64,000 bases of DNA from Phialocephala subalpina (lineage: Eukaryota > Ascomycota > Leotiomycetes > Helotiales > Mollisiaceae): contig FJOG01000001.1 in the NCBI GenBank assembly GCA_900073065.1, forward strand, positions 3,582,827-3,646,826, read 5' to 3'. Below, one piece after another: positions 26,499 to 45,408 of the stretch. The notes below the pieces were generated by a model. That model made no database searches and was not told the origin of the DNA. It was given only the letters and a program-made list of their open reading frames with translations. The translations under genes were made by a program, and so were the position numbers. The number at the start of each line of letters is the position of its first letter. Within the stretch, counting starts at the first letter, position 1.

Positions 26499-29400
26499 TC
26501 ATTCCTTCGCAGCCCTCCTTTGCCTAAGTGTTTTTAAAAAACTTGAGAGCCTACTCTTCCTCTTTGTTGCCAATTCAAGCGCTTTCAACACTTTCAAAAT
26601 ATCGTCCCATCCATCAGTCCATGTATCAGGATCCTCAACTCCTTTTCCCCCATCAAGTGGTCTACTTTGGTTCCATACTCGACTGGTTTGACTCCCCAAG
26701 GTGCGAATAAGCTCATCCCGAGTATGTGGGGTATCTCTCCGTAAGATTCGAAGAAGTCTCTCTGGATCATCCAGTATATGACTCCTCAGAATTCGATCAA
26801 GATTTTCCCGATGATCCCGCAACCATGGATCCTCTAGCAAAGCTAGATCGATTATCTTCCGGCCCTCAAGTAATTGGTTTTTTAAAACCCGAAAGAGCTT
26901 TTCCCTTTGCTCATTGTCTAGAATGACTGTGGCAACAAAACCATTCGCCTTCTGTACCACCAATCGCCACAACTCACGAGACTCTGTGTACGTTGCCTCA
27001 ATTAACACAATAGCTCGCGCCGTCTCCAGAACCTTGTCAACATCCATGTACAATGATATATTTTCTCCCATCTCATTGAGCAGAAGGTCAAATCTCCAGT
27101 GTTTGAATTTATTTTTCAGCGCCGTAGCCAGTTCAGGGTCGAGCTTGAAAATGCCTTTGGCGGTTTGGGTGTCGATGAGCTCCTCGAGAGTTATTTCTCT
27201 GGTGATACGTTGTTGTTTTAGCTCAGAAGGGGATTGCTCAGAGGCCTCGGCGTCGATGGCCTCAATGACTTTTCTGGGCACTGAGAATAACGATGAAGAC
27301 TCCTTATCCGGCCAAGCTAAACGTGACATTGAATTAGGGAGGGGAGCACTCCTTGCAGGACCTCCGCAGCGAACCCGGTAAGTCGTTGACCGGTTCATCT
27401 GAAACTGATCTCGCGTGGAAAGCGCATACATCCTGTCAGACTCTGGTGTTTTGGTCGAGGCTAACGTACTACGGCTTTGTATTTCTAGATCTGGCGGAGA
27501 CATCGCGGGGCTCATCTCATCGCCCATCTCATCGCCCATCCCGAATGCAACACTACGACGAGGACGATTACTGTATGATAAATCCCGAGACAAACCATCA
27601 GAAAACCACTTATTCGGGGCACTGAGCCTCGTTCTCGTCAACTCTGAAAGGTCAGTCTTCTCAGCCTGATACAAGCATGCTGATTTCTCCAAAGAGTTGC
27701 TAATGTCCACCACCACAAAACTGGCCCATTTGCTCAATAGAGACCACTCGGTGCAAATCTTTTCGCCTTCAGCCCTAGCAAGGTCTTCAACTTCTGCATT
27801 GATATTTCCTTTATCGCTTTGGCTGATGGCATGCAGCCAGCTTTGACCACTCTCCAGGTCATTCAAAGCTGCCTTAGCCGCCAGTAGGTGCACATAAGTG
27901 CGTTGGTAGTCGAGCCTCTCGATGGGGAGCTCTGCGGTAACTCTTTCTCCAGATGTTGCGGTTGCTTTGACTTTGACGGATTTTGCCTCGAGTTCCTTGG
28001 AGAGGAGAAAGTAAACAGAGGATCTGGAGAACGCATGGAAGTCTGGGATACGATGCGGAGCTTGGATGCAAACTCGTTCTTCCCCATTGGCAGTACTAGG
28101 GACACCGCCCAAACTGATCTCAACCTTCCATGTGGAAGGCGTCAACGCAGCTTCCAACATCCGGATGACCCTTCCCTTCCATTCACCTGCTGAGTCTACC
28201 GAGACAACTTCGGCCAGTCCGCCGCCGTCTCGGCCAATACCTTCAACAAGGTGGTGCGAAACGGCGTCGCCTATCCCGAGAGCAAAGAATCGTATTTTCC
28301 CTTCTCTTCCCGCAGACCTGGTGTCTCTGATAAATTCAAAAGTATTGGCTGAATTCCAAACTTCCCCATCCGTCAAAATAATGATCTGGGTATTGAAAGC
28401 TGGGTTGCTTTTCTGGACGACATTCCGCAAGCCCGAAAGAAGCTCTGTGCCACCCATATTGGCATCGAAGTTGGTTGTGATATATGACATTGCTTCGTCG
28501 AGATTTTCCTGGCTGTATGCCCGGGATTCAGGCCACATGAGGATATAGTCGGTTCCAAATGAGCATATGTTGAAAGAACAGTTGTTTGGAAGACTCTTCA
28601 AGAAAAATCCCATCGCTGTCCTCAATGCTTGAATCTTGTCCTGCATTGATCCTGATCGATCGGCAAGAAAGATGATTTCGCTCGGCGATTTTGGCGAAAC
28701 TACGTCGGGAGTGTACATGTCCCGGAGGTTGATAGAAACCATTAGAGCTGAGTGATTTGGGAGCTTTGGATGTGGTTCCTGGGTAGCACGGGAAGCCAGT
28801 AATGTTCCGCCACGGGATTGGATGAGGAGGACGAAATCTTTCCCAAGACAGGCACTTCGGTCAGAGAGTGTTGCTCTGGCCCTTTTAGGATCATAGTCCA
28901 AAGATTCCTGCTTTTTGGCTAGATCTCTGATGTTTCTTGTCGTTGTAGGGCCGTGAGAACCCATCTCTATTGTCACTGGATGTGTCCGGCTCTCAATCGT
29001 GTTGATCGCAACTGGTGATGAAACTTGGATTTGGATCTGAAGTCCGTTTTCTGGAGGAACAGCTAGAGGCTTAGAGGCAGTTGAAGTCGAGAAAGAGCTC
29101 GGGGACGCTCCATATCGTGGCGCAACGGACGTGGGAATCGTGAGAAGGATGCCATCTCCACTAAGGTCGGCTTTTAGTTCCGTAATATAGCAGATCTCAA
29201 TATTGACAGTGGATTGCGCTGGGATGTTCCCAACGCTAGTTTCGAAGATCTCAGGTGTGTGCTCTTCAAGGAGAGCAGCAACACGTTGACGAGCAACAGC
29301 CGCCGTAAACTTGGCTTTTGCCTGTGATTTAGGCTTGACAACTCCTTTTAAGATTTTTTCGGAACCAATGGAACAGGTAAAGGACGTGACTGTCGACTTG

Positions 29401-29729
29401 TCGTAAAGTGGGAAGCAGTACGTTACTTCTTTGATAGGAAAGGTCGCTCGATTGGTGAAGGTTTGCGTCAACTTCGTCCAAGCAAAGGTGCCCATAGCCT
29501 CGACCTCCACCGATACTTCTAGCAGTGGCAAATATAACTCATTCCCTTCCTTAGTTTGGCGGTATTCTGGAACGACAAATTCGTCGTATTTCACCTCATG
29601 ATGGGCGACTTCCCTGCTCCGTATCGTCGGTGGTTGCAAGAGCGGTTCAGCCTGCTCGGCTCGGAAAAATAGTCCAGAAGCCAGCCGATTGACGTTGGGG
29701 GTTTCGAGACGAGTGTAATAAGAAGACAT
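26499..29729 (-). CDS. VIT and von Willebrand factor A domain protein, 1076 aa
   Basis: A single exon starting at 29729. Residues about 60-190 form a VIT (vault/inter-alpha-trypsin) domain with the typical FTNRATFPIKEVTYCFPL and AAVARQRVAALLEEHTPEIFETSVGNIPA segments. A VWA domain spans about 350-530 and has a complete metal-ion-dependent adhesion site start, D357-R-S-G-S361, with downstream TDGEVW. The C-terminal third is helical, with a segment EITLEELIDTQTAKGIF... seen in fungal VIT-VWA proteins. No signal peptide or membrane segment, so probably cytosolic. VWA domains mediate protein-protein contacts; the partner is unknown. Its promoter is shared with the STAND-type gene starting 291 bp away on the other strand. 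Confidence 0.9.
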   Translation of the reverse strand: MSSYYTRLETPNVNRLASGLFFRAEQAEPLLQPPTIRSREVAHHEVKYDEFVVPEYRQTKEGNELYLPLLEVSVEVEAMGTFAWTKLTQTFTNRATFPIKEVTYCFPLYDKSTVTSFTCSIGSEKILKGVVKPKSQAKAKFTAAVARQRVAALLEEHTPEIFETSVGNIPAQSTVNIEICYITELKADLSGDGILLTIPTSVAPRYGASPSSFSTSTASKPLAVPPENGLQIQIQVSSPVAINTIESRTHPVTIEMGSHGPTTTRNIRDLAKKQESLDYDPKRARATLSDRSACLGKDFVLLIQSRGGTLLASRATQEPHPKLPNHSALMVSINLRDMYTPDVVSPKSPSEIIFLADRSGSMQDKIQALRTAMGFFLKSLPNNCSFNICSFGTDYILMWPESRAYSQENLDEAMSYITTNFDANMGGTELLSGLRNVVQKSNPAFNTQIIILTDGEVWNSANTFEFIRDTRSAGREGKIRFFALGIGDAVSHHLVEGIGRDGGGLAEVVSVDSAGEWKGRVIRMLEAALTPSTWKVEISLGGVPSTANGEERVCIQAPHRIPDFHAFSRSSVYFLLSKELEAKSVKVKATATSGERVTAELPIERLDYQRTYVHLLAAKAALNDLESGQSWLHAISQSDKGNINAEVEDLARAEGEKICTEWSLLSKWASFVVVDISNSLEKSACLYQAEKTDLSELTRTRLSAPNKWFSDGLSRDLSYSNRPRRSVAFGMGDEMGDEMSPAMSPPDLEIQSRSTLASTKTPESDRMYALSTRDQFQMNRSTTYRVRCGGPARSAPLPNSMSRLAWPDKESSSLFSVPRKVIEAIDAEASEQSPSELKQQRITREITLEELIDTQTAKGIFKLDPELATALKNKFKHWRFDLLLNEMGENISLYMDVDKVLETARAIVLIEATYTESRELWRLVVQKANGFVATVILDNEQREKLFRVLKNQLLEGRKIIDLALLEDPWLRDHRENLDRILRSHILDDPERLLRILRRDTPHTRDELIRTLGSQTSRVWNQSRPLDGGKGVEDPDTWTDGWDDILKVLKALELATKRKSRLSSFLKTLRQRRAAKE

Positions 29730-30020
29730 CTTGGCTGAAGTAGTTTAAAAGGAAAATGGACGACTGGAAGGGGAACTTTGAGTATGGCAGCCTCGAGCCT
29801 TCTCATGGAAAAATTTTTGAATGAAAAAGGAAGTCAAGATCGTGGACGCCCGTGGGAACGCCTAATGCACGAGTATTTCAATGCAGACGACATGGTTGGG
29901 CGTCTCGATGCTAGCCTCTGCTTCAGCCCCCGCTTCACCTAACGCCCGACTTCATCGGGCGGCAGCCTCATGAAGAAATCTCAACGTTTGAGCAACGTTG
30001 GACCAGAAAAGCCCATCAAC
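29730..30020. promoter_or_regulatory. Shared divergent promoter region (291 bp)
   Basis: Separates the start of the VIT-VWA gene (minus, 29729) from the start of the STAND N-terminal-domain gene (plus, 30021). No TATA box is clear. An in-frame ATG at 29970 would add 17 residues to the plus-strand gene, but the family begins at MSFG, so 30021 is preferred. Confidence 0.5.
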
Positions 30021-32445
30021 ATGTCTTTCGGCATATCTATTGGGGATATTCTCATGCTGTCTGGCCTGGCCTACAGTATCGGGAAAACACTCACGACAGG
30101 TCGTAAGTCGGCACCTGAAGAGTTCCAAGAGGTGCAAAACCAGCTGTTCGCCATCAGCAATGCGCTGAGGCTCCTGTCGGCTACATTGAATAAAGAAGGC
30201 CCCACAGAGGTGGAAAGGGCTATAGGACTAGAGGAGGACGAGATCTTGGGTCGGATGATAGAGAACTGTCGGTCGACGCTGCAGTATTTGGACAAAGTTA
30301 TCAAAAGCTATCCAGAGCTGCAATCGGACTCGAAGAATGAGCATTCTGACGAGAATACTCGTAAGGGGTGGCGGAGGGAGTTGAAAGAAAATATCAAGAA
30401 GATCAAGTGGACTGCAGAAGGCGCTGATTTGGATAAGTTGAGGCATAACCTTGCGACTCACGTGAATGCGCTTAACTTGGCGATTGCTGCACGAAGCTGG
30501 TAGGCTCAACCGACTTTGGGTCGCTGTGCTCATGCTGATCTTGATACAGTATCCAAACCGATAGAGTGAAGGCTCAAGTTGACCTTGTTCACGGAATGCT
30601 GGGGGATATCCATGAATGGTATCTGAGTAATCTCAAGGATGCACCGACAAGGCCCGACAGGTCTAGACGAGAGGATTCTGGAATTACTAGATACAAAGCT
30701 AGTCCAGAACAGCCGCAAGAGCAGCCTGAGTTAACATTTTCCGTCGTTCTCGACCTTTCGAACGATTCGTTGTGTCCTAAAGCGGGTTTCAACCCTGAAT
30801 GGCTACGAACTCAAGGCACGCGCGTCTTCTATTGTCTTTGTGGCAACCATGATGACCTTGACTATACCTGTAAGATTCACATACACAGTTTGGGGCTCAA
30901 AGTGTGCAAAGGAGAACTGACACTAATAGTGCTACCCGTGAGTCTGCTCGTTAGACTCACGACAACTCGACCCAGTTGGAAAATCTATGCATTTTCAAGA
31001 GCGTATAACTCCGTTGTATCTTTGCTTCTTTCAAACATACCATCCACATGTACGTCCAAGTTGTCAAGACCCTCAAAGTAATATTATGTATTGATGATCT
31101 TCAAGACCTTGCAGAATTTGAGAGAGAGGTGGTCAAGCTCGCTTTGCTACAGGGCCTCAGGTCATCATCGACGGCTGGAGCCAATTCCATGCTCATGTAT
31201 ACATCTGTACAAGAAGATGGCCGCGGATCTCTCTCGGTGCTGAATACACAGGGGTAAGTGTCTTGAGTGGCCCTCTAGCACGATACTCACACTTTTGTTC
31301 TCAAGTGATACTGCTGGCTTCCGACAAGGCATTCGAAGCGTAACAGTAACATCAAATGGGTTCCAATACATTGCAGAAGCCATTGATAGTGTCCAGATGT
31401 TGTATTACATGACGATCTTGTTTCCCGACCCCAATGAAGCTACCGAACAGGAAAATCCAGGACTTCTGCCATGTCGTGATGCAGAGGTTGTACTTCATAC
31501 AAAAACCACAATTCATGGTAGCCATGGCGCTGATATTACTCAGCTTGTTGTGCAATGTAACCACTCATAAATACCCTGTTGAAGTGGCCTTTGGCTGACA
31601 TACCCAATAGTCGATCATCTGACAGTGGTTGATGAAGTTGGAAACACTCCAGGTGTCGTATTGAGAGGTGTGAAGGGAAAGGCATCTCTCGAGAATGACG
31701 AGCAACAAGATATACACCAAGCTGATATTGAATTGTCGTTCACCTCTCGCGAAGCAGCAGATTCGTGTAGGATCTCAGTCAAATTTTTGCAACGACACCT
31801 CTTCCTCTCTTATTTACAATCTCAGCGTCTCGGGGAGATCGTACAGTTTCGGAGGTTAGAACCTTTTCTGGAAATAAGCTTATGCTAATAAGAAAAGGAA
31901 TATCGGGGATGTGATGATTCGGGATATGCAACTTATCGATGCGCAAGCTACTATTGTCCAGGACCCGACTACCAATGAGCAGAGGATGATAGTCAACAGT
32001 AAATGCGGTTCTAAATTTGTCACTATGATCCGTAAGTATCCTGTCCAGTGGACTTTAGGTATAATGTTTTCCTAGAAGCTCACCAACTGTAGTACCGGCA
32101 GCTTCACCGGGTCCATTATTGATGGATAGGTCTCGGAATCCTCCTAACCTCCCCGCATTTTTCATTGATATCAGCGCAGAAAGGACAAGGATTGTTGAGC
32201 AGTCATCTGGAATTAGTTCGACTTTTGCGCTGGATCGCGCAGAAGATACCAATAGATCTTTGTGTGATGTGTAATTTGCAGAAGCCTCAATTCCCTGCAT
32301 TGAAAGGCTAGTTTCTGCTGCAAAAGGGAACTTGCCGTCCTTTGGGCTAGTTAGTTCAGTTTACAGTAGAGAACCGCTTAGATTCCGAAAGAATGGCAAT
32401 ATGTACTGTACATACTGTATCCGCTCAGCAGTTTGCGAAGACTAA
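30021..32445 (+). pseudogene. STAND-type N-terminal domain gene, probably truncated by an in-frame stop
   Basis: The first exon (30021-30499) begins MSFGISIGDILMLSGLAYSIG and continues with a helical segment, a form known as the fungal N-terminal domain of STAND proteins. Further exons that splice in phase: 30550-30869, about 30930-31252 (joint uncertain), 31306-31556, 31611-31854, 31898-32031, 32093-32274. Around 30930-31050 the frame cannot be carried cleanly into MYVQVVKTLKV at 31048, so a frameshift or missed intron exists there. The TAA at 32272-32274 is followed by 56 more open codons in the same frame (FAEASIPCIERL and on) to a TAA at 32443-32445, so it may be a CAA changed to TAA. Role by analogy: immune-type or allorecognition signalling. 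No nucleotide-binding domain is seen here. Confidence 0.6.
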
Positions 32446-32715: not shown

Positions 32716-34010
32716 GGTCCCTGAGACTATCTTTTATCAGACTTTAGAGCGATTTAAGATTGGTCTCAATGACCACGAGAAGGAAGACTTTGGGCTCACT
32801 ACATTGGATGAAGTTAACGATATCATATGTGAAATACAGGATGAGCACGCATCGGAGCGTAAGATGCAGAATATGACGCGGATCCAAACGTTCTTGGAAG
32901 GCATGGAACAGTATGGTAATGTGATTGAGGTGTTCTTGAACGCGTCAGTTTTTGTTGCTTTTGTATGGGTAGGTCACTATATCACCTTCCTCAAATAATT
33001 GTTGGTCAGCAACTCACGAATCATTTTGCAGGGCCAGTGAAGTTCCTGTTGCAGGTAAGGCTCATGAGAATGTTTTCATTAAAGCTAGGCCTCTAACCTC
33101 CAACAGGTCGCAAAAACCTGTACTGACTCCTTGGACTCACTGCTGAACACATACGAACAAATTTGCGAAACTATACCGCAGTTGCTTCAGTATGACAAGC
33201 TTTTCAAGCAGAATCCAGCAATGCAGCGGGTTCTGGGGCTCATATATAAAGATATTCTTGAATTTCACCGTCGAGCCTTGGTTGTTTTCAAACGCAGATG
33301 TGAGCAGAAATCGCAAGCCTTCGACTACTGTTGCTGATATTACCGACAGCCTGGAGACGACATTTTAGTGCCACTTGGAAGGACTTTAATACTCATTTCG
33401 GGCGTCTCCTCGACAATCTTCGCCGTCATAAGAGGGACATTGAAAGCCAGGCCTCTTTGGTTGAGATTGAACGCAATCAATCCTTGAGGGAGGATCAAGA
33501 GAAGCAATTCCTTGCTGCCGAGAGCAAGGAAAGAGAGAGACAAGAGAGTCGTCATCGAGAAAATTTCACCTGCCAATTTTGACCTCGATCAAGAGGTCAT
33601 CTCCGAGAATTGGAGCAAAGAACCAGATTTTGGTCGCTGGTTGCTCAACCATGAAAAGGTGAAAGCCTGGTTTGACTCGGGGAATGCGGATGCTGGAGTA
33701 CTGTGGCTGAAGGGCATCCCAGGCGCTGGTCAGATTGCCTTTTATTTTTCTTCAAATTGTCTTAGCAGGTTAATGATGAACACAGGTAAATCGGTACTTG
33801 CCTCCCGACTGATCGCAGAAGCCAGAGATCTCAAATCTCCCATTTTCTTCTATTGCAAGCACGAAGATAGGAGCAGAAGTTCATTAGCGGCAGCTCTAAA
33901 AGGATTTCTAGCTCAATTGATCCGCCTCAATTCAGAAGTCATCTCTCACATTTACGAAGAATGTTTTAGGAGTAGCGAGCTCACCCTTGAGACCCTAGAT
34001 TTCCTTTAAA
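32690..34010 (+). pseudogene. NACHT (NLR-like) gene, 5' half: N-terminal domain and P-loop
   Basis: Exons end at 32968, then 33032-33054, 33107-33299, 33350-33728 and 33786-34010. The N-terminal region (LTTLDEVNDIICEIQDEHASER, LEGMEQYGNVIEVFLNAS, GPVKFLLQ, YKDILEFHRRAL) matches a common fungal STAND N-terminal domain. The P-loop GIPGAGKSVLASRLI appears only after removing a 57-nt intron (33729-33785). Then FFYCKHEDRSR and LKGFLAQLIR follow. Damage: a frame change at the GA-rich run near 33520-33540, an unsatisfied phase at the 32968/33032 junction, and loss of everything after TLDFL at 34009, where a transposon begins. The reading resumes at 43629 with KRLVECALERSQPVWIIID. Such proteins act in fungal allorecognition and innate immunity. 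Broken gene is certain; function is by family. Confidence 0.85.
34001..34010 (+). repeat. Left target-site duplication (10 bp)
   Basis: TTCCTTTAAA here and TTCCTCAAAA at 43629-43638 match at 8 of 10 positions and lie directly against the terminal inverted repeats. The right copy keeps the NACHT reading frame (Phe-Leu-Lys); the left copy runs into TAA. Confidence 0.7.
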
Positions 34011-34076
34011 GTCTTAGACGACTATTCGGCCTACCAAAATCCACTTCCGTCTCTAGACCTGAGCAGTCGCTGCTCT
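34011..34076 (+). repeat. Left terminal inverted repeat
   Basis: Starts GTCTTAGACGAC; inner blocks ATCCACTTCC (34039-34048) and GTCGCTGCTCT (34066-34076) each have a counterpart in the right repeat. Confidence 0.75.
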
Positions 34077-35220
34077 AACTTGAGCCGAGCCCCGAGTCTT
34101 GAGCACGCTAGTGAGTCAGCTGGATCACGCTCAGGGGGGTCCTATTTTGGCTCCCTCGATAATCGGTTATAGTTTCTATATTATCTGTATATAGAATTTT
34201 GCAAATCTTATTCCTTGTAATATAGCTACCTCTTTGAGCCTATTAAGAGATCATAACGGGGGCCGTTCTTAGTCCCTTGTCACATTCATCAAGGGTCCTT
34301 GTCGGAGCCGATTTGGGTCTCCTTTTTAAGCGAAAGGGCCTCGCTTAATGCCCCTCGAGGCCTCTCCTCCCTTCAAACAACCCAACTTGTATAGCGTACG
34401 ACTTCGATATTCTAAGAGCTTTATCAAATGATTTTATATAATTGTTTGGAAAGGTACAAAAAACGGTGCTACGAATCCAATGTCCGTCAGCGTCTGGGCT
34501 CCCAGCTATATTCTACTTTCATACAAGACGAGGCACAGTCTTCCCAAGAGCGAAGTTGCAGCAAGCAAGGGAAATACAACGCCCCGGTGCTTCTGTTCGA
34601 CAAGGTACCGTGCAGGATTAGGCCATATCAGCACGCCTCCGCAGCTTAAGAAGAGTAGGCGTGCTTGGCTACTGCTGCTGACTGCCACTAGATCCATGTA
34701 GCGGCGATGCTGCATTAAGCAGGATTCATGAAAGGTTTGGGAGATTCATGCAAATCCTAGCAAGGCGGAATTACACTGACGTTAGAACTTAAACTGTGCT
34801 AGCAAAGGATTAGCTGGGTAAAGGGAGAGACATGCAGCAGCGATACCACGTCAAGTGGCTTTGGGAGATTCATGCAGATCCCAGCAAGGCAGACTTCAGC
34901 ACCGATACTCAAACAGTACTAGCAAAAGGAGTAAAGGATCAGTTGGGGTTTCATTCAGAGGTACTGTAGAGATTCATGCTTCTGCGATACGACACCCAGA
35001 GGAGTCAGGCCAGATATACGTGAATGTGGTGCTTGTCCCATTCCTGGAGGTCAAAGCCGCTGGCACTCGCTGCTGCAAGAATCTCACTGTCGCCAGCGCA
35101 TCGGTCTCTCCGAACGCAATTTTGCGGCCGAGAGGTTCCATGCTTGCATGGGGCTTCTTAGTAAGGCGTCTCCCCCGCAAATGCAATTTCTTCCTCGCAG
35201 AACAATCGACCCTACGGTAA
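34077..35220. other. Left arm of the element, no recognisable gene
   Basis: Normal base composition but only short open frames (for example 34428-34649 and 34855-35220). A diverged direct repeat of about 85 bp occurs at 34737-34818 and 34860-34945, each starting TTTGGGAGATTCATGCA and ending in a CTAGCAAA...AGyTGGG pattern. No protein family recognised. Confidence 0.5.
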
Positions 35221-35264
35221 CATAGAGTCCATAAAATCATACAAAAAGTTAATAAATTTATTAA

Positions 35265-35293
35265 TTCCGAGTCTATAACTTATAGACTCGGAA
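35265..35293. repeat. Perfect 29-bp palindrome (14-bp arms, 1-nt centre)
   Basis: The left arm TTCCGAGTCTATAA (35265-35278) is exactly complementary to the right arm TTATAGACTCGGAA (35280-35293) around a single C. The AGTCTATAA half-motif recurs just downstream (near 35351). Confidence 0.85.
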
Positions 35294-35599
35294 TCTATAA
35301 TATATAGAAAACTACTCTATATAATATAGATAGCAACTTTATAAAAAAGTCTATAATACCGTAACAAATTATACACTATATAAATCAAAAGATATATACT
35401 TATTGTCTATAATGCCCTTTTTGCCCAATCTAACTTGCTTAATCCTCCCATCTGCCTAATCCTCTATCTGCCCACTTTATTCCTTTTACCTATCAAGTAT
35501 AATATTCGAATTGACTCGCTCGTTGATTTAAACTAGAGTTTTTAAGTCCAAGAATGAAAATCTGAATAGGAACGCGTACTTAATAGTAGAGTATAGAGC

Positions 35600-35915
35600 T
35601 GCAGAGAGTCTAGTCCAAAGTCCAGTACAGAGTCCAGTCTAGAGTCCAGTCTAGAGTCCAGTCCAAAGTCCAGTCCAAAGTCCAGTCCAAAGTCCAGTCT
35701 AAAGAGTATAGGCAGAGAGTACAGGCAGAGAGTCCAGTCCAGTCCAGTCCAGTCTAGTCCAGAGAGTCCAGTCCAGAGAGTCTAATCCAAAGAGTCTAAT
35801 CCAAAGAGTCCAGGCAGAGAGTGCTAGTGCCAGTGGTCCAATCCAAGGAGTGCAGTTGATGGGAGTGCAGTTAATGGGAGTGCAATTGATGAGAAGAGTG
35901 CAATTGATGGGGGAA
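35600..35915 (+). repeat. Minisatellite of AGTCCAGTCCA-type units
   Basis: From 35606 to about 35830 the sequence consists of degenerate units of 10-12 bp based on AGTCCAGTCCAA and AGTCCAGTCTAG, with some GAGTCCAGGCAGA variants. At 35845-35915 a second unit, GAGTGCAATTGATGGG, occurs four times with small changes. The tract lies inside the inserted element just before its AT-rich island. Confidence 0.85.
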
Positions 35916-35929
35916 AGCATAGGCCACGT

Positions 35930-37020
35930 AAATAAACCTCCGCGTTAACCAATAATAAACGCGTTTTGGCCCACTTAATATTACGCTCGAGCGCTCTTTC
36001 TCGACTTACCTCATTTTAATAGTAAAGCTTATTGGAATCCGGTGATAAATAAAGAAGAATTCGCGAGTAATTTATTTATTATAATATTAAACTATCGAAT
36101 TTCGAGAAGTAATAACGTTTTTAGAGTTTTAAAGTTTTAAAGTAATTTCAAGTTATTAATTTTAAATTTATAAAAATATTTAAAAGTTTGTAAATATAAG
36201 CCCCTAGTTTTTATAGAACGAAATAATTATAATAAACTTTAGAGAAAACCCAAATCCTATTTTCTTTTTATTTAATATAATTTTATTATTAAGATTAAAC
36301 TATTTATATAAATAGTAATATATTTAAAAAAAAGTAATATAATTAGAATATATTTAAAGTTTATATTCTAAAATTTAATATTTATAAGGCAATTATATCT
36401 TCGATAAATTTATAATAAATCACGTTTATAAAATCAATATTTAATTACTTTATATATTAAACCGCAAATTGAAATTATCCCAAGTATTAATTATCTAACC
36501 GCTAACCTTTATTTAGTATAATATTAATTTTCTTTCAAGTTTATTTTCCTAATTTTAATTTTTCTTTTTTATCAAAATAATTTTAAACTTTAATAAATAA
36601 ACTAAATAAGAAATTCGTTTTATATTTTCTTTAAAATATTTGAATATAAATATATAAATAAAATAAAAGAATTAGCCTTTTTTTTAAATATTAAAAATTA
36701 ATAAGAAATTAATTTCCAAGTTTTTATTTTATAATTAATATAATATATATTATAAGAATACTTTGGATTTTTATATTATTAATTAAAGTAATTTGGGCTT
36801 CAATATAAGATTTCGATTTATTTTAAATTCTATTAAATCGAATTCAAATTCGTATATTTAATATAATGCGAATTACTTTGGCTTGAAGTATAAATAAAAT
36901 ATATACGCAATCTTGTAATATATTAAAGTATTCTATTTTAAACGCAATCACTTCGAGGTATATTGTTTCACACCAATATAATCGCAATTATAATACTCCG
37001 AATCTAAAAATAGGGTGAAA
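35930..37020. repeat. AT-rich RIP-like island
   Basis: About 1.1 kb with very few CpA or TpG steps, stops in all frames and no readable domain. It is probably a multicopy sequence mutated by RIP and may be where the transposase of the element was. Confidence 0.6.
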
Positions 37021-37500
37021 GGAGCCGAATTGGATCAAGGCACTGGCGCATAAAGGAATATTAGCGATTGGAAGAAAAGCCTTAGGTAATATTACAAATC
37101 CACATCGTAAAATTGGTTGGATCCCAGATAGCTAATACGTACCTTGTGTGGCTTGGGATGTGGCTTCGATGGAAGGGCTTCTTTTTTTGTTTGCACGCTT
37201 GAGGGATCCGGATCGTAATGCAAACGGCAAAACTCTCGACAGGGACGGAAACGAAACGGAAGCACGAGAGAAAATGAGGTATCGATCCATGATAGCCAAG
37301 GACTACTTTGCCATCAGGGAGGAAAGTCGGCTGCCTGTGTACCTGTCAGATCCTGTGGGCTTGGAGGAGGTGAAGACAAGGAGGCGTTCAAAAGAAACAA
37401 CTCAAGTTATATAACCAACAAAAGATCTATCCTACAAATCATGCAATGATGTACAATCGGTTCCAGGGGTTATCCGTGAATCACGTGCCAAGGGCCTTGA
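37021..37500. other. Normal-composition patch inside the element
   Basis: A short patch with an open frame 37148-37414 (contains FARLRDPDRNANGKTLDRDGNE) that starts at GTG, not ATG. It may be a piece of a gene, but no family is recognised and the upstream frame is closed. Confidence 0.35.
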
Positions 37501-38239
37501 CCACTTCCAACTCGAATAAATCAATAACTACTAATCCAATTCTATTTATTCTTAAATTGTAAAAAAGCTAATCTAATATTTAATCATTTCTCCTTTGTTT
37601 TTAATATAGGTATTATTTCTCTTTTTTATACTAGTAATTAAATTTTCAAGTATTTTAAATTTAATTTAAAATTTAATTTCTTTTAAAATTCTTTTTATTA
37701 TATTTATATTCTTAATTTGTTTTATAAATTCTCAATAAGAGAAAAATCTAACGATTAAATAAATTATTGAATTTTTAATTTTTAATTTTTTTTTATATAT
37801 TTTCTTATTATTTTTTATATAATTATTGTTACGGTCTTATACACGTGACCTTACATTCCCTATATAGCATCTCTATAGCCGAGGTTTTCTTGATAACAAA
37901 CATCAATCATCAATATTATCATCACTTCAACCAACCGTAACTTCCGTTACAATTATTCCTTTATTATACTTTTTAATAATCTTTAAATAATATTACGCGT
38001 TTAATCCTCTTTTTTTCGAGGATAATTAAAAGTTTTATTTTATTATTATAAAAACAAAATTATATTCTCATCGAAATCCTTTTATTTTCAAAATTAAAAT
38101 TCAAATTCCTATTTAAATACTTTTTTCCAGGCCTTCGGATTATATAAATTATATTTCTATTTACTTTTATATGAAATATAATTTTATTACTTTAATATAT
38201 TTTTCGGTAATTCCTTTTAGACTTTTTTTGCTATTTGCA
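37501..38239. repeat. Second AT-rich RIP-like island
   Basis: AT-rich on both sides of the solo LTR. Its right part (about 38000-38239) is continuous with the 3' end of the Tc1/mariner-type open frame and probably holds the RIP-mutated remainder of that transposase. Confidence 0.6.
37827..37951 (+). repeat. Solo LTR, 125 bp, with perfect 5-bp target duplication
   Basis: Begins TGTTACGGTC and ends CCGTTACA, the same terminal style as the gypsy LTR of this window. It is bounded by ATTAT on both sides (37822-37826 and 37952-37956). It contains ACACGTGACC and CTATATAGC (promoter-like) and is clearly less AT-rich than its surroundings. The length is short for an LTR and below the few-hundred-base limit for RIP known from Neurospora, which could explain its good preservation. 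The element interior is absent. Confidence 0.8.
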
Positions 38240-38740
38240 TTATATTAAACGCTTCTTTTTGTGTTCGGGCTTAAAGTAGGGCTTTCGGCGAGGCTTATAC
38301 TTAGTTTTGCCAATAGCTTTAAGAATCTTTCGGATCGTGTTTCGATGGAGTTGATATCCCGATTTAGAAAGTATTGCAAGGGCGTGGAGAGTATCTTTTG
38401 GGTTCTTAAGAACATGCCGGAGAAGTGCCCTATTATCTCGTTCGAACGTTTTCTTAGTAGGTCTATTTCGGGGCTTTGATTTAAAGCTATTATCGTTTGT
38501 AGCTAGCCTCCGCTGGATAATATCCCTCACGGTAAAGTAAAGAGTGTCTTTTAGCCGTGAAATTGCGGAATATTTATGCCCATCGAGATAGCGGGTCCAA
38601 ATTTGGGCTCTTTTCTTAGAAGAGGTCTCTTTTCGATCGGTCTTAATCGCGCGCCCTATGATGATAATTTTGAAGAAAGGAGTGTATGTGTGAGAGAAGA
38701 TATAAGCGGGGAAAGAGGCGCAGGGTGGGGCCCTAAGCAC
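38240..38740 (-). pseudogene. Tc1/mariner-type transposase, N-terminal part only
   Basis: The open frame starts at GTG, so the genuine start is not visible. About residues 30-165 read as the paired helix-turn-helix DNA-binding region of Tc1/mariner transposases: KKRAQIWTRYLDGHKYSAI, then a VRDIIQRR helix, a basic linker with a PRNRPTKKTFERDNRALLRHV segment, and the second HTH ending KILKAIGKTKYKPRRKPYFKPEHKKKRL. A stop follows directly, and the catalytic DDE/D domain that should come next falls in AT-rich RIP DNA. Non-functional. Confidence 0.75.
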
Positions 38741-40345
38741 TAACCAAAATAAGTAAAATTAACGGACAACCCCTGGAACCGATTTGTACAGTCGAACAAG
38801 TACCTTGCAGCATATTCACAATATCAATACCATTGGTTGCCCGAACGCAGGCGTTGAAGAGGACGGTTTCTTCAGGATTGTGATTTCCGCCTGGACTGGA
38901 TTATTCAAGATTCCGAGGCCAACCACACAAGTCGTGCATCTGATATCGCTTGAGAGCATTCATCCAGCTATTGGGTCTCGATTTCAGAACTGGGACGGAC
39001 GGCCCCCATCAGAAATGGATGGACGAATTGATCTGATATCGCTTTTTTTTATGGACTTATACAGCTCGCCCACCCAATCCTATCAACTCTATTGATACTA
39101 TGATGGCAATAGTTGGAAACGAAAACAACCTAGGTGCCAAGGACCAAGTACCGCCACTTCGGCCGAAACTAGGCAACATGCAAATGTTCAGGCCTCCTGG
39201 TACTGTAATCGATACTCTGGCAAATGAACAAGACCCCAAGAAGAAAAAGCTTAGAGCAGGCTTCTTGCTTCGCGACTAAAGCATAGCTATACCATTTCTC
39301 GCTGGCGATGCGAGAGTAGAAAAGTATCGGCTGCGTACTCTCGCACTCCTCTTGTACCTATCAAACCTGCTGCTGTCCCAAGTCAAGACTGGCCCACTAG
39401 CTCAACGACTTCGATAAACTACCAGATCCTTAAAAAAAAAAAAAATTACCGGTGTAATGGACCTTACGTACTCATCGGCTTGGAATCTGGGTAAGACCCT
39501 GGCAACCTCAGACACGTCTTTCAGCTGCACTTTGCTGCGCTTTCGAAGTCAAATTCACAACGGTGCTGCATCAATTGCTCGCGATCAAGTCAACGGCTGC
39601 TGTCCAGATCGGATGCGCTCAAGAAAGTGCTTAATGGAGTCATATCAATACGATCACGCCTTCGAGACCACGTAGCTCCTCCACGCCGTGTTATTCCTGT
39701 CACTAATCGAGTCCTCGGCACAGCCCTTGGCATTGTTCAAATTGCTGCTGCAATATCCAAGGCTGTTTTCAATGAGGTCTCATTGGTATCAAAAGCCGGG
39801 GATGAAGTTTCAACGAGTTCAATGTCACTGGCGAAAACACCGACTGGGCAACAATCCTGAAATGGTCACAGATCGACTCTACCTCAATAGTATACCCGCG
39901 CATATTCTCTTTCTAGACCTAACTTTCACCCCAGAGGAACCTATACGACCTCTCGATATCGATAATACGTGAATGGATTGCTTGCTTAACCGAGCTTCGA
40001 GTATCGGCAATCATATCGAAAAGGACGACGATATAGTCAATTTGATCCCCTAACTCGATGGCGTTCAATACTCCACTGCTCTTCGAACTACGAATTTTTC
40101 TTATCTAAAACGTGGGGATGCGCTTATTTATGATTGGGCCAAAAGAAACCATTTGAAATTTGAAACACCACGAGCTGAAGGATTAATTAAATAGGGAAAT
40201 GTGCTTCGATTAATTGGACGCCTCCAACCACAAAGGTAGAGCACACCGCAAGTTTTGTCTCAGACCCCCAACCAATATCACATAGCGGGACAAACCCAGT
40301 GGCTGCGCAACCACTTGTTGCGATAACATCAGCACTTTGTACCGC
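38741..40345. other. Unassigned DNA between transposase relic and HET gene
   Basis: Short open frames only. A 59-codon ATG frame at about 39095-39280 (contains MQMFRPPGTVIDTLANE) and a frame at 39627-39860 look partly protein-like but match nothing I know. Around 40020-40190 a segment reading DWAKRNHLKFETPRAEG faintly resembles a LINE reverse transcriptase, too weak to call. A run of 13 A lies near 39433. Confidence 0.4.
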
Positions 40346-40352
40346 TATATAA
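40346..40352 (+). promoter_or_regulatory. TATA box of the HET gene
   Basis: TATATAA lies 107 bp upstream of the ATG at 40459 and is followed by a pyrimidine-rich leader, a normal fungal arrangement. Confidence 0.5.
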
Positions 40353-40458
40353 TCACGCCATCTCTCCCCGCCTCAGCCCTCATCTCTTCTTGCCCATAGC
40401 TGAGCCCTACGGCATTGCAGCTGTTTTGCAAATCCAGTCAGCTCCGAGAGGAAGCACA

Positions 40459-42717
40459 ATGGACCGAAACAAAACCAGCCAGTCTCATGCTTCTCCTCGA
40501 AGGCCGCGAACCACGTTCTATAGCATCCAGGCTAGACACGTGAACGAGCAAACAGCGCGATCCTTAGCTGATAGATACGATAGTAGTGCCCCTAAAACCG
40601 CCGAGACTCCGACCCCTCGGCCTACTCTCGACCCTCATCTAGTTGCGGGCTTCAAGAAATGGGAGGAAAATGATACATTATTGGGGCTAGTAGCCGTGGG
40701 TGGCAAAGTCTTGCAATTGCGGGCGAAAGACCTCCTCAAGTGTTTCTGGGCTGGTGGTCTCGACTCCGAATGTGCAGTCTGCGGTGGAAACTTCGACGAC
40801 GACAAGGGACCTCCAATTCGTACCATTGCGTGCGTGGATTGGGGAATCTGTACTCGCTCGGATTTACGGCTTCGAGGCATATTCGATAATACTTCCAGTC
40901 CTATACTCAGGGTCTTTAACAGGCATATGAGCTGTCTCATCCGCTCCGAGATCAAGTACTATGCCGTCTCGCATGTCTGGCATGAAGAGATCCGAATCGC
41001 TCAATCTAATACGCCGGGTAACCACACAGACGCCACGGTATTCGTCCTTCAAGTAGTTATCCAGACAGCGGCTGAGATCTGGGCCGAGTTTCGCGCCAGC
41101 TCTAGCGACAAACATTTTGCGTGGGACGATTCGAGCGCAGTAATCGAAGTCTGGCACGACTACATCAGTGCTCCACAGTGGCAGAAGCCTACACTAGAGA
41201 GAGTCCTGCTTTTTTTGCCGGACATATATCGAAGCGGGGCAAAGACTGTCATTCATCTGGATGACATATCACTAGCGCAATGGATAGGAATCTGGAATCA
41301 GGACGGAACATTACAACGAGCAAAAGCATTGCGCGTAGTCGTCGACTCGGCATGGTTCCATAGGATGTGGGTACTGCTAGAGTATCTCAATAGTGCCCAA
41401 GCTGGAGTCATGCTTAATGACTACTCTATTGTCCCAGATCCTCAGGAGGTAGTTTACGACTCGGACGGCTCGGAGGACTACCCCTCAGTGCCTACCACGA
41501 ATCTTCTTCGTACGATGCTAAAGATGTGCCGGGATATTCTTACAGAAGTCTCGTGGCTCGAGGGTATCGACTTTCAGAAGCTTGCCGACGATGTCTATCC
41601 CTCACGGGCAGTATTTGAGTTGTGCAATTTCGAATCGAGCCACGAGTTCAACCTGGGAGGTGCCCTTTCGCAGATTGCTTCCCGAGACGCGACATACTAT
41701 CGAGATCGCTTTATTGCGTTGTGCGACATGCTACACATCGACGCCTTTGAAGACGGGAATTCGGCGTTGCCAGACGACACTATCGAGGCGTGCAAGTGGC
41801 TGTGGAAGAAGTGCTTATCCAAAGGGGATTATACGCCACTGTTGCTCAAGCCTAACGGCGAGCGCAAGCCACCAGCGGGCCCTACGTGGTTGATTGGTCA
41901 TGAACAGATGAAAGAAAACATGTGGAATCTGGGTGCAACTCTCTCGCCTGCAACTCACAATATTATCGTCGGCAGTAACAGTATCAAATTGACCATGGAC
42001 CACATTGGGGACCTTGTCTCTACCCACGCGATGTTCGATGACGATAAATCGATAATGGAGGGCTTCAAACGAGTTTTGGACGAGTATAATGTACTACACA
42101 AGAAGCACGATGGCCCATTCGACATCAACACATTCATTGACACTCTTGGCCGAGTCTACGGCTTTCCAGCTGTTATAACTGATAAGAAGGTCCCAACAAC
42201 AGTGGGCGAATATGCCTCAGAAACAATGGACCTGCAATTAGAGACCTTAGGACCGTTAGAGGCCTTAGAAGGGCTTCTAGAAACAATCAAGGATCTACTG
42301 GATGCCATCCCTAGATATGAAAGCTCCGAAGACATGGAATTTCTCATGAGAGATCTGGAGATGGCGTGCGCGCGGATGATCTTGAAGCTAGAGCTGGACG
42401 ATCCAGTCTCAGGCGTCGAGGGGCTCTCCACAAATATCGGCCGTACTGAGATGATTCACGCATTCCCTGGTGGCAAGGACATAATCGGAAGCCGCTGCCC
42501 GGCGTGTCGTGAGTCGTTCTTATTCCGTGCCGAGTTATACAGTCATGTGGATATCACACGCTGCAAGCTTTACCGCATCTCCGGGCTCAGTTTCGAGTAT
42601 AGCGGGAAGCAAGGAGTTGGGCTAATACTTTGCGGACAAGATATCGCTGGGAGGGCGTTGTTCGCGACCCAACCCTGCGCTTGTCGGGTAGAGGTAGCGA
42701 TCGAGCTCAGCTGTTAG
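40459..42717 (+). CDS. HET (heterokaryon incompatibility) domain protein, 752 aa, transposon cargo
   Basis: Single exon. The open frame extends upstream to a TTG, but the first ATG is 40459. A HET-type domain is recognised by YYAVSHVWHEEI (about residue 170), an IYRSGAKTVIHLDDI strand (about 260) and WFHRMWVLLEYLN (about 302), matching the conserved blocks of HET proteins in order. An N-terminal Cys-x2-Cys (ECAVCGG) and C-terminal cysteines (SRCPACRESF) may bind metal. HET proteins trigger cell death when genetically different cells fuse. The frame is 2.2 kb with no stop and no RIP damage, while the host NACHT gene is wrecked, so it may be functional. It is the only intact gene found within the TIR element. 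Confidence 0.85.
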   Translation: MDRNKTSQSHASPRRPRTTFYSIQARHVNEQTARSLADRYDSSAPKTAETPTPRPTLDPHLVAGFKKWEENDTLLGLVAVGGKVLQLRAKDLLKCFWAGGLDSECAVCGGNFDDDKGPPIRTIACVDWGICTRSDLRLRGIFDNTSSPILRVFNRHMSCLIRSEIKYYAVSHVWHEEIRIAQSNTPGNHTDATVFVLQVVIQTAAEIWAEFRASSSDKHFAWDDSSAVIEVWHDYISAPQWQKPTLERVLLFLPDIYRSGAKTVIHLDDISLAQWIGIWNQDGTLQRAKALRVVVDSAWFHRMWVLLEYLNSAQAGVMLNDYSIVPDPQEVVYDSDGSEDYPSVPTTNLLRTMLKMCRDILTEVSWLEGIDFQKLADDVYPSRAVFELCNFESSHEFNLGGALSQIASRDATYYRDRFIALCDMLHIDAFEDGNSALPDDTIEACKWLWKKCLSKGDYTPLLLKPNGERKPPAGPTWLIGHEQMKENMWNLGATLSPATHNIIVGSNSIKLTMDHIGDLVSTHAMFDDDKSIMEGFKRVLDEYNVLHKKHDGPFDINTFIDTLGRVYGFPAVITDKKVPTTVGEYASETMDLQLETLGPLEALEGLLETIKDLLDAIPRYESSEDMEFLMRDLEMACARMILKLELDDPVSGVEGLSTNIGRTEMIHAFPGGKDIIGSRCPACRESFLFRAELYSHVDITRCKLYRISGLSFEYSGKQGVGLILCGQDIAGRALFATQPCACRVEVAIELSC

Positions 42718-43569
42718 ATAGGCCAAATCTAGATACTGGTAGGCCGCCGGTCTCATGTCCCAAAGCAATTACTAGACTCGCGAACCCTCGTCAATCGCTA
42801 ACTATTATTCTTTTGGTCCCACAAATACTAGTCTTTGGGAGCTTTTAACATCTGGCCCATTATCTATTGCTTTTGGTCCTTTATTCCATTTACTTCATAT
42901 ATCACTCACGAAGCACCGCGAGCTACAAATAATAAATTATTCTTGACCTTGTCCAAATTAATTTCAAAGCGGTCCTTTTTGTTACTCATTCACACCAAAT
43001 CCTCCATAAAATGTCTTCACTTTCTCGGATTATATCATGGATTGAATATTTTACTGGAACCACTTAGTAAATACCTTTCCGATCTTCTCTTCGACCATCG
43101 CCTGGTTCTCCTTGCCCTTGAATACTGCATTCCGCCCGGTAATTGAAATCCCTCCATTACTCTACTCCTTGCTAGGCGGCGCATTCTCAGAATAAATTTA
43201 TGAAGTAGTCTCTTAAAATAAAAATAAAAGTGTAATATGCAAGCAAATCTGGAGTAGATTGAGAAGTGCTCAAGTAGTGCCTGGTAGAAGGAGGTTTGAA
43301 AGAGTAAAGGTTGTGATGGAGGCGAGGGCATATTCTCCTTGGAAAGAGCCAGGGCCACGCCATACTGTGAGAAGAATCTGCCTTGTAATCAAATGATGTA
43401 TTTTTGGGGGTGGGGGGGGTCTTGTTTGGGTTCCCTAGGAGCTGACTTGGTCCCTCTGAATATAGTCGTGTAGAGTTGACAACTTTGCATGGCAGGTATA
43501 ATTGGTTACTATAAGCGAGAGCAGGAACGTGACTTAGCAACCTGAGGCGAGGGTGAGTAGCGCCTGAGC
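42718..43569. other. Right arm of the element, no gene seen
   Basis: 3' flank of the HET gene and the inner right arm. Short frames on both strands look random. A run of G (GGGGGTGGGGGGGG near 43406) is the only notable feature. Confidence 0.5.
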
Positions 43570-43628
43570 AGAGCGGCGACGCTGACTAACCGCGTTGGAA
43601 GCGGATGTGAGGAAATGTCGTCTGAGAC
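43570..43628 (-). repeat. Right terminal inverted repeat
   Basis: On the minus strand starts GTCTCAGACGAC, then ATCCGCTTCC and GTCGCCGCTCT, matching the left repeat. It abuts TTCCTCAAAA, the right target duplication (43629-43638). Confidence 0.75.
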
Positions 43629-45408
43629 TTCCTCAAAAGGCTAGTGGAATGCGCTCTGGAAAGGTCACAACCTGTGTGGATCATCATAGACGGCCTGGAT
43701 GAGTGTGAGAAAAAGGAGAAGAAAATTTTGACATCGATTATGGGAATGGTGAAGGCCGAGGATCATACCGGACGGCTACGTCTGCTGGTAATCAGCCAAG
43801 ACGAAGGCGACATACGAAAGTTCCTGACGAAAAGGCCGTTGATCTCATTGAACGAAGCTCCTCAGCATCAAGAAGCAGTTCGAACATATGCTGACAAGAA
43901 GTCCGCAGAACTCAGAGAGAAATTTGAATTACTACTATCCTCTGAAAGCCATATCACCAACTTGATCACGGCCCGCTCCAAAGGCGAATGGTCTGTTCTG
44001 CTGCTGGACGTCAGATCATTAACTGACACGCTATAGACAGGCATGTTCCTATTTGCACGACTGGTTCTGAAACATCTAAAGAACCAAGTCGCCCTCAATC
44101 AGCTTGAAGGAGAATTAGATCCTTCCAAATTTCCCACTGAATTATATGAGATGTGAGTTCTGTCAGACGATAATTGAAAGTGTGTGGGTTCAGCTCATGC
44201 GTATACCAGCTACGATCGAATCGTTTAGAGGATGTTCTCTAATGGAACACAACAGCGACAGGCGGCTGAAAAGATTCTGAGTTGGGTCGTCTGCGCAAAG
44301 CGACCCTTACAATGGCATGAAATATAAGCAATATTTTCAATTGATCTCAACTCGGGTGTTGTCGACTTCCAAGGGCACCGTTTACGAAGCGTGGACATTA
44401 AGGATTGTGGTTCTCTTGTTGAGATTTCTCTAAGCAAGGCTATAGAGTTGGTACACCACACGGCAAGATCGTGAGTTATTTTTGGGAGATTGATTTTTGT
44501 TTTAACGAGCACTAAGTGATGGCAGCTATCTTCTCGACCGATCTCGGGCAAATACAGAACCCCGAGTCAATATTCGGCAGGCAGATGCGGAAATTGCAAC
44601 TACTTGCCTACATTACTTGAGGTTTCACTGCTTTGATAGTGCCCTAACCGATGAGGAGATATCTACTTACGCCTATTAAGGATATTATGCCTTTCAAGAT
44701 TTCGCTGTTGCGTATTGGCTAGACCATCTTCAGTCCTGTGCCAATGCGAAACCACGCCACTCTTCCGACACTCTAGATCAACTGTCATCGATCATTGACA
44801 AGTTTATGGACCAGCATCTTGGGATGCACCCAAGATTGGATACAATTTTAAATACCACATCTGCATCTGAACAACCGGAATTCCATCGCATCGCCAATCA
44901 GATTGCTCTTCTTCAGTCTGTATTGAAGAAGCAAACGGCAACCGAGAAAAAATCCGACCAGGGCATGACTTCTCTTCAAGAAAGGCTTGATAGACGACAA
45001 TCCATCTTTGAGGCGACTGTGATACAACTACTTTCAGACGATCCAGAGAGAGTGGATCTCTCGATCTTCTATGGTGATGCAGGAAGGTGGTTCAAGTGTC
45101 CCAAGATACAATGCTTTGCATTCTACGAGGGGTTCCCAACGCCGGCAAGTCGAGACGCTCACAACGAAAAGCATCAAAGAGTTTCCCGATGTTCATCTTC
45201 AGGTTGCCTTTACGCAACTATTGGATTTGCGCGTGCGGGAGAACTTAAACGGCACATCTCCAAGAGCCATCCAATGGGCCCTGAAAAGGAAAAATGGAGT
45301 TTTCCTCAGCCGGGTACGGGAGTAGAGCATGCCCCCCCGAAGGATGCATCGGGAACTATCAACCCTGCTCAGCAGCAGAGACAGCAGCAACGAGTGCCTC
45401 AGAATTAG
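43629..45408 (+). pseudogene. NACHT (NLR-like) gene, 3' half: Walker B to zinc fingers
   Basis: Continues the P-loop half that stops at 34010. Starts Phe-Leu-Lys-Arg-Leu-Val, then Walker B VWIIIDGLDECE, a sensor-like RLRLLVISQDE, SKGMFLFARLVLKHL (after an intron with a GC donor at 43984), YDRIV, RPLQWHEI, DIKDCGSLVEI, LVHHTARSYLL and YYAFQDFAVAYWLDHL. This order is standard for fungal NACHT proteins. Two C2H2-like fingers follow at about 45096-45280 (CPKIQC...H...H and CSSSGC...H...H). Stops interrupt at 44226 (TAG), 44325 (TAA), 44677 (TAA) and 45406 (TAG); the last three stand where CAA or CAG fits the family, the first less clearly. This pattern points to C-to-T change at CpA. No intact product is possible. 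Confidence 0.88.

Follow-up and report, generated by a model that had tools for sequence, protein, structure and literature searches.

A 9.6-kb gene cassette in an NLR-type gene of Phialocephala subalpina and a family of cassettes with common ends

The stretch of DNA analysed here, a window of 64,000 nucleotides from the ascomycete Phialocephala subalpina (assembly GCA_900073065.1, contig FJOG01000001.1, positions 3,582,827 to 3,646,826), carries an NLR-type gene whose ATPase domain is divided by a 9.6-kb insert. The window is part of contig C51 in our numbering, and the genome searched for relatives of the gene and its insert comprises 68 Mb in 119 contigs. Sequences resembling the ends of the insert occur at many other places in this genome, and the insert and its relatives are referred to below as cassettes.

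The divided NLR-type gene and its insert

Both halves of the NACHT/NPHP3_N ATPase domain of the host gene are present in the window.

33488..34009, + strand: 5' segment of the divided ATPase domain of the NLR-type gene, covering NPHP3_N model positions 33-100 (open frame ending TLDFL-stop; Pfam E=2e-18)
43626..44036, + strand: 3' part of the split domain, model positions 112-163, with the Walker B motif IIIDGLDE (open frame beginning DFLKRLVE; Pfam)

Since one piece holds the first of these model segments and the other piece holds the second, they are read as one domain divided. Separate searches of the genome returned 12 matches for the 5' piece and 6 for the 3' piece, with the window's own copy counted. 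Four paralogues were matched by both pieces (E≤0.001 for the 3' piece and E≤0.01 for the 5' piece; the remaining matches hit one piece only), and the halves are adjacent in all four (C14:732166-732750, C14:214933-215514, C90:2186780-2187331 and C46:195745-196329). There is thus good support that a 9.6-kb insert interrupts a single NACHT/NPHP3-type gene at 34005/43629. The first-pass annotation, prepared from the window sequence alone, had proposed an NLR-type gene split by an element with inverted-repeat ends, and the reading frames, the single domain and the unsplit paralogues bear this out.

The cassette in the window has the following parts, given with the evidence for each.

34001..34005, + strand: TTCCT, the core direct repeat on the left side (sequence; the family core is TTAC/TTCC)
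34005..34010, + strand: left spacer TTTAAA, which is NNTATA in most relatives (sequence)
34011..34022, + strand: left inverted arm GTCTTAGACGAC (sequence)
34011..34330, + strand: conserved left end, common to other cassettes (genome matches)
35581..35822, + strand: minisatellite with a 12-bp unit of about AGTCCAGTCYAR (sequence)
36000..37000, no strand: AT-rich stretch, GC 0.17 (composition)
36858..37027, no strand: interior repeat of 100-170 bp, present in the C90, C71, C35 and C22 cassettes too (comparison)
37452..38788, - strand: nested Tc1/mariner-like remnant (inverted arms, TA, HTH_Tnp_Tc3_2)
40459..42717, + strand: cargo gene for an intact 752-aa HET-related protein (open frame, database relatives)
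43283..43628, + strand: conserved right end, common to other cassettes, beginning at 43203 in comparison with the C34 copy (genome matches)
43617..43628, + strand: right inverted arm GTCGTCTGAGAC (sequence)
43629..43633, + strand: TTCCT, the core direct repeat on the right side (sequence)

The terminal 14 bp of the two ends, AAGTCTTAGACGAC and, reversed, AAGTCTCAGACGAC, match at 13 of 14 positions. Beyond them, similarity between left and right within the window is not above that of shuffled sequence (score 24; shuffle maximum 25, n=300). Terminal inverted repeats of about 60 bp, as annotated in the first pass, are thus upheld for the outermost 14 bp, and the longer repeat, which had been drawn from left-right similarity of the window copy alone, was rejected. 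The nested remnant has 27-bp inverted arms of its own (37455-37481 and 38758-38784, 93% alike) with TA on either side, and its frame at 38243-38758 carries HTH_Tnp_Tc3_2. A search of the plasmid collection gave no match.

Two further features adjoin the NLR locus. A SesA-like N-terminal domain lies upstream of the split ATPase domain at 29943-30500 (E=4e-5, just below the cut-off), and at 26502-29744 on the minus strand an intact frame of 1081 aa encodes VIT and VWA domains.

Cassette ends, junctions and target sites across the genome

Matches in the genome number at least 40 for the left end (34011-34130) and at least 37 for the right end (43480-43628), the window copy counted. The left motif TTACCNNTATAATCTCAGACGAC matches 34 times with up to three mismatches, and its reversed control does not match at all. 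Left and right ends form 15 pairs, the window's included, in the correct order and orientation and less than 20 kb apart, with lengths of 1.7-15.8 kb. Random placement of the ends gave a mean of 0.27 pairs and a maximum of 3 in 500 trials. The same pairing scan returned two adjacent pairs that are otherwise arranged, plus five right-left junctions. Recurrence of both ends together had been set beforehand as a test of the insertion, and the family consists of at least 15 paired cassettes. The copies that were fetched have about 300 bp in common at their left ends and 300-430 bp at their right ends, and the interiors are largely unrelated. No two of these fetched cassettes were seen to be nearly identical.

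Some arms are of a second type, with TTCGGC / TTCGTCG in place of GTCGTC, at L071 (C61), L081 (C77), L078 (C37) and L084 (C90:1795). This type adjoins the main type once, within an array.

Eleven head-to-tail junctions were read directly, at C90, C38, C46 (twice), C71, C61 (twice), C53, C52, C19 and C35:643. At each of them a left end follows a right end after ten bases in the same orientation, so that the junction reads inverted arm / CCNNTA / inverted arm. The C38 junction has a perfect 14-bp inverted arm on either side of CCGCTA (14-6-14); the arms are changed in the others. A pattern for the junction core matches the whole genome 31 times with up to two mismatches, against 6 matches for the reversed control, although not all 31 are junctions. 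Judged from its letters, the shape of the junction is that of a tyrosine-recombinase crossover site.

Of the 15 pairs, 14 had a readable flank on either side; C35:946-954 was dropped, and the right flank of the C59 cassette came from the pattern search. Over spacer positions 1-4 of these 14 pairs, left and right are 0.88 identical within elements and 0.81 when re-paired (P=0.013). Over positions 5-10 the corresponding values are 0.44 and 0.43. Of 14 left spacers 11 end in TATA, and of 12 unjoined right spacers none does (P=5e-5); one of these 12, at C87, may itself be a junction whose left end has diverged. The re-paired level of identity at positions 5-10, together with the restriction of TATA to the left, means that the flanks have in common just the core, TTAC or TTCC, with no more than one further base. 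NNTATA is an element-specific left spacer, whereas the right flank belongs to the site and is mostly TTAC(N7)A. This motif fits 14 of the 22 unjoined right flanks that were not picked by the motif-holding pattern, or 16 of 24 when two pattern-picked flanks are added, and its last position is A in 15 of the 22 (P=7e-5 against 0.27). The remaining right-end matches of the 37 are junctions, or their flanks were unfetched or unreadable.

These flanks bear on the Mutator-like assignment that the first-pass annotation had given to the insert. Pack-MULEs (Mutator-like elements with captured genes) have common ends around those genes, a target duplication of 9-11 bp and a MULE transposase. If the cassettes were Pack-MULE-like, they would be non-autonomous transposons that hold captured genes between long terminal inverted repeats and make 10-bp target duplications. 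The inverted terminal sequences and the gene cargo agree with this, as do the common ends around genes and the 10-mers that flank the window copy, TTCCTTTAAA and TTCCTCAAAA, which match at 8 of 10 positions. The letters of the proposed 10-bp duplication are as annotated, but across the family they do not behave as a target duplication, and just the core is shared, TTCC in the window copy and TTAC in the majority of copies. Identity beyond the core is no better within elements than between them, and the left and right spacer consensus differ. Within one three-cassette array, on C61, the left spacers after TACC are ATTATA, AATATA and ACTATA; they would be expected to be alike under target duplication, whereas under a recombinase each element would bring its own. 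With the MULE transposase family PF10551, a six-frame search of the genome found nothing at E≤0.001; a family of non-autonomous elements could, however, persist after its transposase is gone. Neither the duplication nor the transposase of Pack-MULEs was thus found here, and the Mutator reading, rejected on the spacer test and the unmatched PF10551, is very unlikely.

A family of DDE transposons would account differently for the same sites, with a 5-bp duplication TTACC, a strong target preference and a left tip six bases longer than the right. The core is indeed direct and 4-5 bp long, and the ends are inverted repeats. However, the two bases beside the core at the left tip vary freely, which is odd for a DDE terminus, and the junctions are symmetric like a recombinase crossover site. 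No transposase is present in the interior frames scanned, the nested Tc1-like remnant excepted. We consider a DDE family unlikely.

Cargo genes and the HET family

The cargo protein of the window has no Pfam hit, and PF06985 (HET) does not exceed its curated cut-off. Five of its 19 other database hits contain PF06985 (P0012 and P0017-P0020), and the cargo stretches VSHVWH, VWHDYIS.PQW and W..RMW..LEY align with PF06985-bearing relatives, some of them with changes. Relatives from Xylaria, Fusarium and Colletotrichum are among the database hits, and relative P0002 is 77% identical over 70% of the cargo. Sequence search found no relative of solved structure, and a DNA search of the genome with 40459-42717 gave one match. 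From these resemblances the cargo is classed as HET-related, not as a scored HET member.

Other cassettes carry other genes. A stop-free frame of at least 280 codons is present in 13 of the 14 other paired cassettes; in the smallest cassette, C71, no stop-free frame is longer than 97 codons. Pfam identifies a Fungal_trans regulator and an MFS transporter in the C87 cassette, HET in the C90 cassette and in the second C61 cassette, a methyltransferase in C117, a pyridine-nucleotide oxidoreductase in C61, and a D-serine dehydratase-like enzyme with a HAD hydrolase in C53. For 12 of the 20 frames in two Pfam scans of cassette frames, no family was found at E≤0.001. The C45 (L019) and C59 (L025) cassettes have a common protein (about 35% identity), whose DUF7924 resemblance is below the cut-off, and a HET-like stretch is common to C22 and the second C61 cassette.

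The HET repertoire of this genome is very large, with 742 first-look PF06985 candidates, and 150 of these, a part, were scored. Their proximity to cassette ends was examined for 87 ends (77 found by homology and 10 by pattern), most of which were not read as whole cassettes. On the inner side of an end, at up to 5 kb, nine of the 150 scored matches are found, against 0.83 expected from the covered length (P=2e-7); two are found at this distance on the outer side only. The inner and outer counts are 8 and 1 at 3 kb, and 11 and 1 at 8 kb. As a control, p450 genes fall inside ends at none of 92 places (103 matches, from which 11 neighbouring exons were set aside; HET versus p450, P=0.014). These counts suggest that HET genes are over-represented just inside cassette ends, although clustering of HET genes in repeat-rich regions is another possible cause.

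Proposed movement of the cassettes and their relation to known systems

An enzyme that could move the cassettes was sought both inside them and elsewhere in the genome. The cassette frames scanned with Pfam hold no transposase or recombinase family above the cut-off except the nested Tc1-like remnant, and a Phage_integrase hit below the cut-off (E=0.036) falls in the Tc1-like frame of the window. PF11917 (DUF3435), the captain of Starship elements, has 25 exon-level matches in the genome, 15 of them with internal stops; at the ten DUF3435 loci scanned, the cassette ends have only chance-level matches. The anatomy of the site makes a tyrosine recombinase the likely agent, with a Starship captain acting in trans as the nearest candidate.

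It is probable that the insert is a small captain-less gene cassette, placed in the NLR-type gene by site-specific recombination at the TTCC/TTAC core, with a tyrosine recombinase such as a DUF3435 captain acting in trans. A circular intermediate, closed at arm-CCNNTA-arm, would recombine at TTAC in the target. This recombination would leave the N7A of the target beyond the right end and the NNTATA of the element inside the left end. If one circle entered the junction of a resident cassette, a tandem array would result. The cargo is predicted to move whole, and HET genes could be spread around the genome in this manner.

Several observations weigh against this proposal. The TTAC(N7)A motif is misfitted by 8 of the 24 unjoined right ends, including that of the window copy (TTCC...G), and the core fits poorly in the C87 and C115 copies. 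The 15 left-right pairs enclose none of the 25 DUF3435 matches. A scan of ten captain loci, together with some 1.5 kb of flank, showed four arm-like words (2 mismatches of 12), none of them beside a TTAC core. The same cargo was not seen at two sites among the cassettes read. An interior repeat, in pieces of 93-335 bp, links 6 of 17 compared cassettes (those of the window, C90, C61, C71, C35 and C22). Finally, the ends are only roughly 70-90% alike between copies, which makes the family look old, and short repeats could have decayed. When the left ends are aligned, 268 departures from the majority letter are seen; 123 of these are C>T or G>A, and 58 are T>C or A>G. This bias is consistent with decay resembling repeat-induced point mutation.

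The apparent age of the ends and the interior repeat common to 6 of 17 cassettes would also suit internally deleted relics of one ancestral Starship that lost its captain and became immobile as units, and captain loss and derelict elements are reported for Starships (PMC12134995). Such relics should share cargo; the interiors share nothing detected except the interior repeat and two protein resemblances. The cassettes are also found at many sites and side by side at junctions. An origin as Starship relics is quite improbable.

The closest likeness is to the Hephaestus Starships, described as having a TTAC(N7)A target (their canonical one, PMC12153272), a short direct repeat, asymmetric inverted repeats and variable cargo (PMC12153272, PMC12257634, PMC9594970). 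The cassettes likewise have a short direct repeat within a target motif, the TTAC/TTCC core within TTAC(N7)A, and asymmetric terminal inverted repeats, with arms of 12-14 bp and subterminal sequence that differs between left and right. Of 20 Starships, 19 are given with direct repeats of 2-12 bp and 18 with inverted repeats (PMC12153272), and TTTAC, TTTACT and ATTAC repeats are given for the Phoenix family (PMC12257634). Horizon, one of the Starships, is described as carrying HET and NACHT genes (PMC12153272, PMC12257634, PMC9594970). Starships differ in size, being described as 15-700 kb long (PMC12134995), whereas the cassettes measure 1.7-15.8 kb and only one exceeds 15 kb. Their 5'-most gene is a DUF3435 captain, and no captain is found inside the cassettes, which occur as many copies with common ends in one genome and in head-to-tail arrays. 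The family therefore looks like small captain-less Starship relatives in its manner of joining DNA, but since the captain was searched for and not found, it is not classed as Starship.

Two other fungal elements share some of these features. Icarus, a putative captain-less Starship of Pyrenophora tritici-repentis, is described without a tyrosine recombinase, with terminal inverted repeats and, in one isolate, with a HET gene (PMC9594970). It is 294 kb long and described with DDE genes at the captain position, whereas the cassettes are small and numerous, and no transposase was recognised in them except the nested remnant. ToxTA (ToxhAT) is likewise given as non-autonomous and cargo-carrying, about 14 kb long with inverted repeats (PMC12506042), but it has a TA duplication, is likely Tc1/mariner, and has one known cargo, ToxA. 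The cassettes also differ from Cryptons, which have an internal tyrosine recombinase and no inverted repeats, in having inverted arms and no recombinase above the cut-off in the frames scanned.

Bacterial integron cassettes stand head-to-tail and are joined by recombination sites, and in Tn916-type elements the coupling sequences are spacer bases carried by the element. The present cassettes resemble both, as head-to-tail gene cassettes joined at recombination sites and with element-borne spacer bases. They differ from integrons in that no integrase or attI platform was identified here and in that they are dispersed across a eukaryotic genome. More tentatively, and as a possibility that we incline slightly against, the family may be a eukaryotic integron-like system. 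A tyrosine recombinase supplied in trans would circularise small cassettes of one or a few genes and re-integrate them at TTAC(N7)A and into each other's junctions. Arrays would be built in this way, and HET allorecognition genes would be spread, here into an NLR gene. Among the papers that searches of the open-licence PMC literature listed, none was seen to describe such small captain-less cassettes, which is not proof of absence.

Fungi have large, fast-changing repertoires of HET and NLR genes. If the proposal of small captain-less cassettes is true, cassettes with a defined recombination site would be a route by which genes spread intact, one at a time or in arrays, with no giant element needed. 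Recombination of the Starship type would then not be confined to captain-bearing giants, and scans that begin with the captain would miss such cassettes.

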